From NCBI RefSeq assembly GCF_007558865.1, contig NZ_VLPK01000003.1, positions 434,001 through 498,000 on the forward strand: a stretch of 64,000 nt of DNA. Reading direction: 5' to 3'. Shown here piece by piece: positions 55,527 through 59,087 of the stretch. The stretch's first letter is position 1, and each line of letters begins with the position of its first letter. A program made the position numbers and the translations under genes. Source of the DNA: Mucilaginibacter corticis. GTDB lineage: Bacteria; Bacteroidota; Bacteroidia; Sphingobacteriales; Sphingobacteriaceae. Below the pieces are notes generated by a model. It saw nothing but the letters and a program-made list of their open reading frames with translations, searched no databases and was not told the origin of the DNA.

Positions 55527-56636
55527 TCAGTTATAAACTTTAACCATAAATACAAAGTTCTTGGTCTTTTCTGTTTTTTGCGCTTCGCTTAGGCCGGCAA
55601 GAGTATTCTTTTTGTTTAGGATAACTTTCTTGTCCAGCGAATCTGCAGGAATATTTTTGATGGCATTTAACAGGTATCTTGATTTGATGGCAAAATGCTC
55701 ACCTTCAGCCTGCGATTGCTTGGCATCTGTAATACCGATGATATTTCCTTTACTGTCCCATAGCGGGCCGCCGCTGTTGCCGGGATTGATCGGTATAGTA
55801 ACCTTATAATGTACGCTGTCGCCGTTCTGACCAACCAGTGATGATAACGAACCGGGGCTGTAAGCAGGATATCCGTCAGGATAACCATAGGTAGAGATCT
55901 GCTCGGCTATATTACCTTCCGCACGTTTAAAGGTGTAAGGTACAGCATCAAGGCCTTCAAAAGTCTTATCAACTATTTTCAGGATAGCAATATCATGCTG
56001 CGGCTCGGCATATAATACCTCTGCCTTGTAGCTATCGCCCTGTGCGTTTTGTACAGAAACCGCGTTGGCACCATCTACCACGTGGTAGTTGGTAGCGATC
56101 AGACCATCGGCAGTAATAGCAAAACCGGTACCGGTAAAGGTGGATTTATCAACAACGGGTTTACCTTTTACTGATTTATCTGATTTAATAGCGTTGATAG
56201 AACGGCTTAAGTTGGTGTTTGATCTATCCAGCCTTTCTACCTTGTTTTTCAATTCGATGATGTTCGGGTTATCGCTGTTGGTTAGTTTACCGGTAAACAG
56301 CAACACGCTTAACACGGTAAATATAGCCACCGACGCGGCAACCGAGATCTTTGAATGATGGTTACGCCACATCTGCACGATCCACATCGGGTGGATCATC
56401 AGATTTTCTTTCAGCGTGTGCACATCTATTTCATCATGGATAGCGTTAAGGCGGCTTTCCATTTCAACACGTTCGCCGTATTGTTTTAAAAGGCTTATAA
56501 AAAGTTTATGTTCCACAACTTTTCCATCCACCTCGGCATCCTCCTTGCGCAGCAATTCAAATTTCTTACGCTCATCCGGTTTCATTTCACCGTTAAGGTA
56601 ACGTTCAATTACTTCTAAAAGCTGGTCATCACTCAT
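55527..56636 (-). CDS. Anti-sigma-like/transmembrane/S1C serine protease fusion
   Basis: A 369-aa protein. Residues 1-75 (DDQLLEVIERYLNGEMKPDE, then KKFELLRKEDAEV) look like the cytoplasmic head of Bacteroidota anti-sigma factors; a helix at 97-116 (VAASVAIFTVLSVLLFTG) crosses the membrane; a trypsin-like domain at about 160-320 has His185 (NYHVVD), Asp215 (HDIAIL) and Ser288 (PGNSGGPL). There is no PDZ domain. I start at the ATG at 56636, with GGAG 9 nt upstream; the sigma-factor gene ends 14 bp earlier, so they form one operon. Confidence 0.83.
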   Translation of the reverse strand: MSDDQLLEVIERYLNGEMKPDERKKFELLRKEDAEVDGKVVEHKLFISLLKQYGERVEMESRLNAIHDEIDVHTLKENLMIHPMWIVQMWRNHHSKISVAASVAIFTVLSVLLFTGKLTNSDNPNIIELKNKVERLDRSNTNLSRSINAIKSDKSVKGKPVVDKSTFTGTGFAITADGLIATNYHVVDGANAVSVQNAQGDSYKAEVLYAEPQHDIAILKIVDKTFEGLDAVPYTFKRAEGNIAEQISTYGYPDGYPAYSPGSLSSLVGQNGDSVHYKVTIPINPGNSGGPLWDSKGNIIGITDAKQSQAEGEHFAIKSRYLLNAIKNIPADSLDKKVILNKKNTLAGLSEAQKTEKTKNFVFMVKVYN

Positions 56637-56650
56637 TTTCTTACTCCTTT

Positions 56651-57223
56651 TTATTTCTGCTGAAAAAATAGTTTCTTCAGCCTTTGCAGGCACTTATATT
56701 TTTGCGTTTTGGCATTGTCTGCATTGGTATAACCAAAACGTTCGCAGATATCCTGCATTGATTTATTGTGGATATAAAAGTCCTCCATAATGGTTTTGCA
56801 GGGTTCGCCTAATAACCTTAACGCGCTTTCCATTTTGTTAAACTGGATATCGCGGTCACTATGCTGGTCTACCTCCTCTTCCTCTATCGGCAAAAACTCC
56901 TGGAAATCCCTGATATCCCCGCCATATCGGTTAAGCTGACTCAACCTTTTTAACCACAGCCTGCGGCAAACCGAATAGATATAAGTTTTCAGCTTACTAC
57001 TTAATTCAAAATCGCCGGCTTTAACCTTATTATAAAGAACAATTATTGCTTCCTGATATATATCCTTAGCATCATCTTCATCGCCGCTATTATTAATGAT
57101 CAATTGTAATACCATCGGAAAATAAGCTGTGTAGAGCTTTCTTAATGCGCTTTCCGAATTATTTAGTATCCCAAGAATAACCTCGCTGTCTGTTGGCGTT
57201 GAATCTTTTAACTGTTTATTCAC
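56651..57223 (-). CDS. ECF-type RNA polymerase sigma factor
   Basis: A 190-aa sigma-70-like factor: region 2 (LRKLYTAYFPMVLQLIINNS, then AKDIYQEAIIVLYNKV) and region 4 (FYIHNKSMQDICERFGYTN). The start is a GTG at 57223, as no in-frame ATG precedes region 2. It is followed 14 bp later by the membrane protease with an anti-sigma-like head, its probable regulator. Confidence 0.86.
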   Translation of the reverse strand: MNKQLKDSTPTDSEVILGILNNSESALRKLYTAYFPMVLQLIINNSGDEDDAKDIYQEAIIVLYNKVKAGDFELSSKLKTYIYSVCRRLWLKRLSQLNRYGGDIRDFQEFLPIEEEEVDQHSDRDIQFNKMESALRLLGEPCKTIMEDFYIHNKSMQDICERFGYTNADNAKTQKYKCLQRLKKLFFQQK

Positions 57224-57446
57224 TATTAATACTATTTATACAAAATTGTAACCCATTGCAGGTAAGAAAAATCTAAATTAAATAAATATTGTGTTTGGCC
57301 TTTCAATATTTTGCCCTCATTGCAGCCCAAGGTACTAACATTATCATTTGCAAACAGTTAAAAAAGCGTAATAAATTGGTTTGGCATGTTTAATGTGTGG
57401 TGTTTTTAAATTATTAAACAAATTATACTTATTTAAACACACAACC

Positions 57447-57698
57447 ATGAAAACTACATTAAAAAACGGCTTCTTAGCTTTAGTTATTGCAGCATCATTT
57501 GCTGCATGTAAAGGCAAAGGGTCAAGCGGTGGTGCTGATTCTGTAAAAACTGATTCATCAAGCGTTACCACTACAACAGATTCTGTTAAAAAAGACACCA
57601 GCTCTGCCACGCCTGATTCATTGAAAAAAGACACCACCATCAGCACACAAAAAACTGAGGTAAAAACCAAAACTACCGAAACCCACAACAAGAAATAA
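57447..57698 (+). CDS. Small Asp/Ser/Lys/Thr-rich lipoprotein, copy 1
   Basis: An 83-aa lipoprotein with lipobox SFAAC followed by KGKGSSGGADSVKTDSSS and a low-complexity tail of repeats like DSVKKDTSS. Paralogous to the next two genes (identical ACKG motif and DSVKTD/DSVKKD words). The longer frame to 57381 lacks a signal sequence, so I start at 57447. Surface or periplasmic; function unknown. Confidence 0.78.
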   Translation: MKTTLKNGFLALVIAASFAACKGKGSSGGADSVKTDSSSVTTTTDSVKKDTSSATPDSLKKDTTISTQKTEVKTKTTETHNKK

Positions 57699-57755: not shown

Positions 57756-57862
57756 ATGCGAATTATTTATGCATGATACGCTGTATAATTGGGTCACCTT
57801 TTAGTAAAAAATGTATTAATACCAATAAATCACATTTATAAACAACAACAAAACGACAAAAA

Positions 57863-58075
57863 ATGAAAAATGCATTCAAAATTGCCGCGGTTGCTTTAAC
57901 AATCACCGCTTTTGCAGCTTGTAAAGGAAAAGGTTCTGCTGGCGCTGATTCTGTAAAAACTGATTCAGTTAAAAAAGACACTACAGTTAAAGTTGATACT
58001 TCTAAAAAAGACTCAACTAAAAAAGACACTACTGTAAAAACTACTACAGTTAAAAAAGATTCTGTTAAAAAATAA
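57863..58075 (+). CDS. Small Asp/Ser/Lys/Thr-rich lipoprotein, copy 2
   Basis: A 70-aa lipoprotein: lipobox TAFAAC, then KGKGSAGADSVKTDSVKK and repeats of KKDTTVK and KKDSTKK to the end. High charge and no predicted fold. Its 3' flank and terminator (58117-58146) recur at 58267-58307. Confidence 0.78.
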   Translation: MKNAFKIAAVALTITAFAACKGKGSAGADSVKTDSVKKDTTVKVDTSKKDSTKKDTTVKTTTVKKDSVKK

Positions 58076-58116
58076 TTTTAACAATTTTAAAAGCTGATTA
58101 CTTAGTTTTTTTTAGC

Positions 58117-58146
58117 AAAAGGTAACTCATTTGGGTTACCTTTTTT
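58117..58146 (+). terminator. Intrinsic terminator of lipoprotein copy 2
   Basis: AAAAGGTAAC / GTTACCTTTT stem followed by T-rich sequence. Confidence 0.82.
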
Positions 58147-58218
58147 GTTGCCTGATATTAATAATATCAGATCAAACGATAGTACTATTATTACTAAAAC
58201 TGTTATAAAACACCGATA

Positions 58219-58307
58219 TAAAAAATAATTTTAGCAACTTTTATACTTGATTATTAGTTTTTTAGCAAAAGGTAACCCACTATTTTACAAATAGTGGGTT
58301 ACCTTTT
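58219..58307 (+). repeat. Orphan copy of the lipoprotein 3' flank with terminator
   Basis: 58219-58275 repeats 58066-58125: AAAAAATAATTTTA, then GATTAYTAGTTTTTT, then AGCAAAAGGTAACYC. It ends in a perfect terminator stem (AAAAGGTAACCCACTATTT / AAATAGTGGGTTACCTTTT, 58267-58307). No gene ends before it. I read it as the remnant of a deleted paralogue or a duplicated 3' flank. Confidence 0.72.
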
Positions 58308-58361
58308 GTGTTTTACAGTATTAAGAGAAAAACTATATAGTCACTTTTTAAAAAACTTAAC

Positions 58362-58547
58362 ATGAAAAATTCATTAAAAATCGCTGCTTTAGCTCTTGTT
58401 GTAGCTTCTTTCGCAGCTTGCAAAGGTTCAAGCTCAACTACTACTACTGATTCAGTAAAAACTGACACTACCAAAATGGCTGACACTTCTAAGAAAGACA
58501 CAACCAAAATGGACACTACTAAAAAAGATACTACTAAAAAAATGTAA
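58362..58547 (+). CDS. Small Asp/Ser/Lys/Thr-rich lipoprotein, copy 3
   Basis: A 61-aa lipoprotein: MKNSLKIAALALVVASFAAC, then KGSSSTTTTDSVKTDTTK, then repeats of KKDTTK. The N-terminal 20 residues are nearly those of copy 2, and the tail differs in the number of repeats, as expected for slippage. Confidence 0.78.
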   Translation: MKNSLKIAALALVVASFAACKGSSSTTTTDSVKTDTTKMADTSKKDTTKMDTTKKDTTKKM

Positions 58548-58610: not shown

Positions 58611-59087
58611 TTAACTTTGTTGAGGATTAAGTTCAACAACCGAATCACGCAGGGCTTTGATCTCGTCATGCGATTGATCGATGATCGCCTTTTGATCGTT
58701 CAGGATATCCCTGATATATGCCGGTAGATGCTGTTCGTTCAAGGCTGTTTGGTAAGCTTTTTTGATAGCGTCTTCGCCAAACTCGCAATCTTCTAAAATA
58801 CTTCTTTCGCTATGGCCCCTAAATGCTGCCTTAACTTCAAGCCAGGTACGGTGTATGGCACCGCTAACGGTTGTGGCATTTTCAACATCGGCACCCAATA
58901 CCTCAATCTCTTCGGCAAGGGTTGATTTCAGCTGCTGGCTTTCCAATATCTTATTGTTAAACACAGCTACCAGGTTGTCATCGTTATCCTTAGTTTCTTT
59001 AATGGCATTCATGTAGCCTTTGATCCTGTCATTGTTGATCTGTACCAGATCATTCAATGTTTCGATAGTTGCTTTGTTGTTTTCCAT
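58611..59087 (-). CDS. PA2169/DUF2383-family four-helix protein
   Basis: A 158-aa ferritin-like helical-bundle protein of the DUF2383 group: IETLNDLVQINNDRIKGYM, then AIHRTWLEVKAAFRGHSERS and ILEDCEFGEDAIKKAYQTAL. Commonly stress-associated but with no defined reaction. A 56-aa membrane lipoprotein lies 85 bp upstream on the same strand. Confidence 0.85.
   Translation of the reverse strand: MENNKATIETLNDLVQINNDRIKGYMNAIKETKDNDDNLVAVFNNKILESQQLKSTLAEEIEVLGADVENATTVSGAIHRTWLEVKAAFRGHSERSILEDCEFGEDAIKKAYQTALNEQHLPAYIRDILNDQKAIIDQSHDEIKALRDSVVELNPQQS

Follow-up and report, generated by a model that had tools for sequence, protein, structure and literature searches.

Envelope stress in Escherichia coli is signalled by the RpoE-RseA-DegS-RseP system, in which an ECF sigma factor is held by a single-pass anti-sigma factor and DegS, an S1C site-1 protease, the RseP-type site-2 protease and ClpXP act in turn on RseA (PMC8103513). 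Class I anti-sigma domains such as those of RsiW, RslA, MucA, ChrR and RseA share an N-terminal helical head, one membrane helix and a position beside an ECF gene. They adjoin only 6% of the ECF sigma factors of Bacteroidetes (PMC7406223), leaving ECF control in Bacteroidota largely open. An S1C-type ectodomain on an anti-sigma factor has been described for RsgI9 from Clostridium thermocellum (S1C-NTF2 ectodomain, PDB 7sjy), an orphan RsgI of the SigI class, where the S1C-type domain is protease-like and cellulose-binding, autocleavage takes place in the periplasmic domain, and, as in other RsgI proteins, the membrane helix contains an XAA motif recognised by ClpXP (PMC12203970). A third relative is HtrAw from Brevibacillus sp. 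WF146, an S1C-type protease behind an N-terminal anchor, which is set off by denatured or unstructured protein and, when given unstructured protein, sheds its own membrane anchor by substrate-induced intermolecular autoprocessing; HtrAw has its own PDZ domain, important for its effect, and is not known to carry an anti-sigma head (PMC5359297). In our literature search, a fusion of an anti-sigma factor with an S1C protease was not found described in Bacteroidota or for ECF systems.

The locus studied here lies in a window of 64,000 nt, the whole stretch of DNA that was analysed, which corresponds to positions 434001-498000 of contig C8 in a 5.3-Mb Mucilaginibacter genome. Reading frame and profiles place an ECF sigma factor of 190 aa with a GTG start at 56651..57223 (-), followed after a gap of 14 nt by a predicted anti-sigma factor with an S1C protease ectodomain, 369 aa long with an ATG start, at 55527..56636 (-); both genes, which the original prediction had located at 55527-57223, are therefore where it put them. 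For the second gene, the ATG at 56636 is preferred over a GTG at 56693 (388 aa), and the catalytic Ser288 named in the original prediction fits the 369-aa numbering. The sigma factor matches the sigma70-ECF family TIGR02937 with 70.9 bits (cut-off, 42.9) in NCBIfam and Sigma70_r2 above the cut-off in Pfam, while a region-4 Pfam match is absent and the C-terminal stretch is highly conserved. The SigI family is absent among the best 25 of its 43 NCBIfam matches, as is the RsgI family among the Pfam and NCBIfam matches of the anti-sigma protease and its head. The Mucilaginibacter protein thus pairs with a sigma70-ECF factor, unlike RsgI9, and it differs from the RpoE chain in that its S1C protease forms one polypeptide with the anti-sigma factor, lacks a PDZ domain and is encoded in an operon of two genes only, without an rseB-like third gene. 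The S1C-type ectodomain was known already, from RsgI9, in another sigma class, and the present locus is best read from its sequence as an ECF/anti-sigma pair that would work as if DegS had moved into RseA.

A search for this architecture across Bacteroidota, suggested together with the original prediction, yields 224 loci with head and protease, collected from genus, family and phylum samples and further regions; ten of them repeat a protein, leaving 214 distinct homologues. The homologous sigma gene lies directly upstream in 221 of the 224 loci (211 of the 214 distinct proteins), and the three loci without it (L112, L167, and L175) all end at a contig edge. Homologues in the genus sample are 49 to 93% identical over their full length, which, together with the upstream sigma gene, rules out a chance architecture or a misjoined frame. 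The anti-sigma protease is present in 58 of the 61 genomes of the genus sample, one of them partial at a contig edge, the other three genomes being 70 to 71% complete, and in 137 of the 151 genomes of the family sample, three of them partial or split. Among the 395 genomes of the phylum sample, only four families of the class have matches beginning in the head; in other families the match covers the protease part only. An alignment of the sigma factor identifies a close orthologue (at least 261 bits; next best, 169) in 21 of 296 phylum-sample genomes, each of which also encodes the protease anti-sigma protein, although in two of them (G445 and G273) the protein match begins only at model positions 39 and 82. 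Named carriers are Mucilaginibacter, Pedobacter, Daejeonella, Albibacterium, Sphingobacterium, Chitinophaga, Hymenobacter, and Pontibacter. One head-plus-protease homologue, that of L112, is found on a contig labelled Bifidobacterium breve MAG, where it is cut at the contig edge; the contig is presumably mis-binned.

Profiles, AF2 models and the 214 distinct homologues all agree with the predicted membrane protein of one head, one membrane helix and one S1C domain without PDZ. The S1C domain (residues 167-327; 55656..56138, -) is supported by Pfam (Trypsin_2 at residues 169-302, E 1.6e-26), by the alignment, by a confident AF2 fold over 167-327, and by Foldseek, in which it is closest to DegS without its PDZ domain (best E 1.6e-12). 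A PDZ domain is about 80 to 90 aa long. Only 42 residues are left after the S1C fold, ending in a helix and a strand (residues 351-369; 55530..55586, -) recognised by AF2 and alignment, and none of the Pfam PDZ profiles matches the 369-aa protein at E<=1, which rules out a PDZ domain concealed in the C-terminus and sets the protein apart from DegS and DegP, the HtrA proteases with PDZ. The codons of the catalytic residues lie on the minus strand at 56082-56084 (H185), 55992-55994 (D215), and 55773-55775 (S288), and the triad, predicted to be intact, is invariant in 214/214 distinct homologues, supporting the prediction that the protease is active. Variants of the serine motif occur in seven loci (GNSGSP, GNSGAP, GNSGGF, GHSGGP, and GISGGP among them; L033 included), all of which retain the serine, so that a reading as pseudo-protease is ruled out.

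Other Bacteroidota families contain PDZ-less S1C-type proteases with a similar C-terminal tail (L081, L276, L277, L278, L279, L280, and L281). Several of these are apparently lipoproteins, they have neither this head nor an adjacent homologous sigma gene, and they are a possible source of the fused domain. The protease part has two additional matches elsewhere in the Mucilaginibacter genome, one at C1:1795957 (E 1.3e-16) and one at C1:2331568 (E 2.9e-4, 57 residues only). The first of these (L002; G000 C1:1795957-1796427) is found in an open frame of 315 aa with 35% identity to the protease part.

The membrane helix comprises residues 97-114 (56295..56348, -) according to AF2 and hydrophobicity. 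All but one of the 214 distinct homologues (213) have a hydrophobic segment, the N-side is more positive in 188 of the 214, and this charge bias indicates a cytoplasmic head and a periplasmic protease. At the cytoplasmic start of the helix, the dipeptide A100-A101 is invariant (214/214), against a background rate of 0.9% for A-A in the homologues, and position 99 is V, I or L in 202/214. RseA reportedly carries V-A-A at the cytoplasmic end of its membrane helix, which would leave the same head end after cleavage. The protein has the features of a RIP-type substrate: its single membrane helix starts, on the cytoplasmic side, with an XAA, and the genome encodes one RseP-type protein (PF02163). 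We propose A100-A101 as a degron like those of RseA and RsgI; judging from conservation and the RsgI XAA motif (PMC12203970), Val-Ala-Ala (residues 99-101; 56334..56342, -) would become accessible to ClpXP after site-2 cleavage.

Between the membrane helix and the protease lies a variable periplasmic linker (residues 115-165; 56142..56294, -; alignment and AF2) with a low-confidence helix at 124-151, which we propose as the site-1 cleavage region; the homologue alignment reveals no conserved cleavage motif in it. Self-cleavage by the fused S1C domain is a likely but putative step, favoured by the V-A-A where the membrane helix begins, by the RseP-type protein of the genome and by the autoprocessing of HtrAw (PMC5359297). 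The original prediction of a one-protein replacement for separate anti-sigma and DegS-type proteases is overstated, because the chain would still depend on site-2 and cytosolic proteases. A different division of labour would make the S1C domain a ligand-binding sensor and leave the site-1 cut of the linker to a separate HtrA/DegS-type protease. The precedent is RsgI9, whose S1C-like domain is described as cellulose-binding (PMC12203970; PDB 7sjy), so that proteolysis is not a necessary role of an S1C ectodomain, and the two further protease-part matches in the genome are in line with a separate enzyme. A pure binding domain, however, would not need the triad that is invariant in all distinct homologues from four families, and we regard this alternative as rather unlikely, while giving it a real chance. 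Self-cleavage remains the preferred reading.

The main addition to the original prediction, from which both are absent, is a shared promoter and a set of lipoproteins packed with sequons. The regions upstream of the sigma genes share the motif GGGTTAC-N15-GTATTAA, which is exact in 188 of 221 loci and has one mismatch in 15 (203/221 in total); among the remaining 18, 16 have both boxes intact with the spacing longer by one base, and two (L073 and L200) have a wider spacing and an altered -10 box. The relaxed pattern GGTTAC-N14-17-GTATTA is found in 211/221 and the reversed-pattern control in 0/221. Of 101 family genomes, 89 have the module, and all but three of these (86) contain the exact motif, compared with none of the 12 without the module (Fisher p 4e-13, kinship ignored). 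The window holds four copies with at most two mismatches versus 0.64 expected, a number reached by 1 of 100 shuffles. One copy, exact, is the promoter of the sigma operon, 2 nt upstream of the GTG start (57226..57254, -). The other three are on the plus strand, two with one mismatch (57791..57819 and 58133..58161) and one exact (58296..58324).

The plus-strand genes divergent from the sigma gene encode three small lipoproteins, two of them preceded by the motif. The first (57447..57698, +; 83 aa) contains four D[ST][AILVMT] sequons and has no motif copy with up to two mismatches in front; the second (57863..58075, +; 70 aa, six sequons) begins 43 nt behind the copy at 57791, and the third (58362..58547, +; 61 aa, five sequons) begins 37 nt behind the exact copy at 58296. 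The -35 box of the latter copy falls within the 3' arm of an inverted repeat (58266-58308; perfect 20-bp arms, 3-nt spacer), so a terminator-like hairpin and the promoter of lipoprotein 3 may overlap. The copy at 58133 has no ORF of its own behind it and is flanked by repeats (95% over 22 nt and 94% over 18 nt); the region 58108-58312 is probably a decayed lipoprotein unit that has lost its gene. A DUF2383 protein (PF09537, 84.6 bits) adjoins the lipoproteins at 58611-59087 (-).

The arrangement is common among the homologous loci: of the 99 that extend 800 nt or more upstream, 66 show a motif-driven lipoprotein gene in divergent orientation, a further 20 show a lipoprotein-like ORF in that orientation under a looser criterion that does not require the strict motif, and 13 show neither. 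Lipoprotein profile matches are found in 89/89 family genomes with the module and in 3/12 without it, the latter being weak (E 5e-7 to 2e-5, with the weakest carriers, in genus g5, at about 1e-7). In six genomes of a single genus (g4), the lipoprotein lies on a contig other than that of the sigma gene and has an exact promoter 44 to 46 nt upstream. These six are included in the nine sites before a lipoprotein among 20 chosen distal exact-motif sites; the other 11 lie before other genes, some encoding larger lipoprotein-like proteins, or before nothing clear, and a regulon reaching beyond the lipoproteins was therefore dismissed. The Mucilaginibacter genome has three exact copies; the one at C1:1836753 precedes an ORF for a membrane protein-like product of 103 aa. 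At one mismatch it has seven sites versus two for the reversed control, which is why we make no claim for distant sites with a single mismatch.

One feature of the sigma promoter counts against the model. GTATTAA ends close to the GTG start of the sigma gene in the window (57221-57254, -), and in 146 of the 203 loci with up to one mismatch the -10 box ends 2 to 3 nt before the GTG, so the promoter would require a leaderless transcript; the sequences suggest that the sigma mRNA is leaderless or that the start is unusual. Leaderless mRNAs make up 5.5% in Flavobacterium psychrophilum (PMC9723704).

The lipoproteins are mostly 50 to 90 aa long with a lipobox and the consensus MKN.FK.GFLALAI..S.AAC. 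Their mature part of about 45 residues is of low complexity and looks disordered; T, K, S, A, D, and V are abundant in it, whereas aromatics and Arg are nearly absent. Across the 86 distinct mature parts that motif-driven genes encode, 519 of the 537 D residues stand directly before S or T, and there are 454 occurrences of D[ST][AILVMT] versus 81 expected (sd 8, maximum 103, 500 shuffles). Pedobacter heparinus belongs to the same family as Mucilaginibacter. A fucosyltransferase of protein O-glycosylation has been studied in this species (PMC8698959), and D(S/T)(A/I/L/V/M/T) is the O-glycosylation motif of Bacteroidota (PMC8550257, PMC12871550). The small lipoproteins are, by their sequons, probably O-glycosylated. 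They resemble the O-glycoproteins of Bacteroidota in a mature part packed with (predicted) sites but differ in consisting almost wholly of sequons and spacers.

These lipoproteins also bear on what the protease cuts. It might mainly cleave other envelope proteins, lipoproteins or misfolded proteins, with the head coupling the amount or occupancy of the protease in the membrane to sigma release, and it would be consistent with this that disordered-looking lipoproteins have the same promoter as the sigma gene and that an HtrA protease is triggered by unstructured protein (PMC5359297). The invariant A-A, however, points to degradation of the anti-sigma head itself, and this account is fairly improbable. 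We also consider, as a long shot, that the module watches over lipoprotein maturation and keeps O-glycosylation or lipoprotein export in balance. The lipoproteins would then be the signal, the disordered tails of unglycosylated or unexported ones triggering the anti-sigma protease to cut neighbouring copies of itself, and glycosylation would close the loop; if so, sensor, protease and anti-sigma factor of a homeostat would reside in one protein.

The reading we prefer takes the head (residues 1-95; 56352..56636, -; AF2 with profile and fold comparison) to be an anti-sigma domain. AF2 predicts confident helices at 3-14, 20-32, and 34-69 and low-confidence helices at 72-79 and 84-99, with a pLDDT of 83 for the head modelled alone; a three-helix head with a fourth helix (of low confidence in AF2), cytoplasmic by charge bias, is the layout of class I anti-sigma domains. 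In contrast to described members of the class, the head is not recognised by Pfam, lacks a zinc motif and is joined to a protease ectodomain. It gives no match above the curated cut-off in Pfam and none in NCBIfam, and there is no conserved Cys in the homologue alignment of the head and hence no Hx3Cx2C zinc motif, a feature that is not obligatory, being present in about 56% of class I anti-sigma domains (PMC7406223). Foldseek with the head model returns only five PDB matches (E 3.6 to 7.8), namely, RslA twice, MucA, RsiW, and the kinase inhibitor Sda; four of the five are thus anti-sigma domains, each match being weak alone. The VIA Z scores, on a DALI-like scale, are 5.9 for RsiW, 5.6 for RslA, 5.5 for MucA, and 2.6 for Sda, where values below 6 often arise from the arrangement of a helical bundle alone. 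A search of PDB sequences with the head profile gave only chance-like matches, mostly nuclear receptors (best E 0.009), and was discarded.

Kinship in sequence is seen beside cousin sigma factors, whose partners have either a zinc-less head of like type (L340-342) or a zinc-motif head, the two of the latter that were tested (L345 and L346) both exceeding the Pfam zf-HC2 cut-off. In hhalign, the head profile aligns to these zf-HC2 anti-sigma heads with a probability of 93.9 (E 1.6e-7, 57 columns), whereas the best of 60 column shuffles reaches 9.1; a further control, the head aligned to its own linker, was set aside as invalid owing to overlapping columns. The original prediction of an anti-sigma-like head was to fall if the head aligned with a non-anti-sigma family; it aligns with anti-sigma heads, and its kinship with class I anti-sigma domains is supported at the level of sequence profiles. 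The cousin sigma factors of L340, L341, and L342 score 167 to 170 bits, and behind the zinc-less head their partners have another C-terminal region; heads of this type thus seem to come with more than one kind of ectodomain.

Residue couplings between sigma factor and head were calculated for 219 of the 221 pairs, two being lost to the coverage filter. Pairs between sigma region 2 and head helix 4 are overrepresented (18 among the top 100 versus 5.7 expected; 17 in a rerun), and this is the published interface for class I anti-sigma domains (PMC7406223). In the partner-swap control, a swap with the nearest genome scores 21 and more distant swaps score 9 and 3; since nearest-genome swaps score as high, kinship could explain the couplings, and we rejected them as proof of contact. 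That the head instead serves the sigma factor as a scaffold or positive regulator would agree with its lack of matches to curated anti-sigma profiles and with the putative status of head-sigma binding, but the zf-HC2 alignment, the few structural matches, the operon order, the membrane anchor, and the proposed degron all fit an inhibitor, which makes this reading very improbable.

Our preferred model, which we hold to be about evenly balanced between right and wrong, is an autoregulated envelope-stress module of ECF sigma factor, anti-sigma protease and lipoprotein with a self-cleavage chain. The head would bind the ECF sigma factor and keep it silent, while the periplasmic PDZ-less S1C protease would act as the sensor, engaged by an envelope signal such as unfolded or exposed protein. 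Neighbouring copies would then cut one another's juxtamembrane linker, a site-1 step corresponding to the role of DegS on RseA, after which the RseP-type protease would cleave within the membrane, and the exposed V-A-A end of the head would be taken by ClpXP, freeing the sigma factor. The latter would transcribe its own operon and the small lipoproteins from GGGTTAC-N15-GTATTAA, and the lipoproteins may in turn have a role in the envelope and exert feedback on the sensor. The sequences themselves establish the architecture, the invariant triad and A-A, the kinship of the head with anti-sigma domains, the constant pairing with the sigma gene, the common promoter and the joint occurrence of the three parts; sigma binding, site-1 self-cleavage, the sequence of the cuts, glycosylation, feedback and the nature of the signal we infer.

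With a defined sigma factor, a predicted inhibitor, a promoter and an output, this compact module, found in 137 of the 151 genomes of one family, lends itself to experiments in Pedobacter or Mucilaginibacter. Should the protease cleave the protein that carries it, the anti-sigma factor would have the DegS step built in. The function of O-glycosylation in Bacteroidota is described as largely unknown (PMC12871550), and the sequon-packed lipoproteins may connect this modification with envelope stress.
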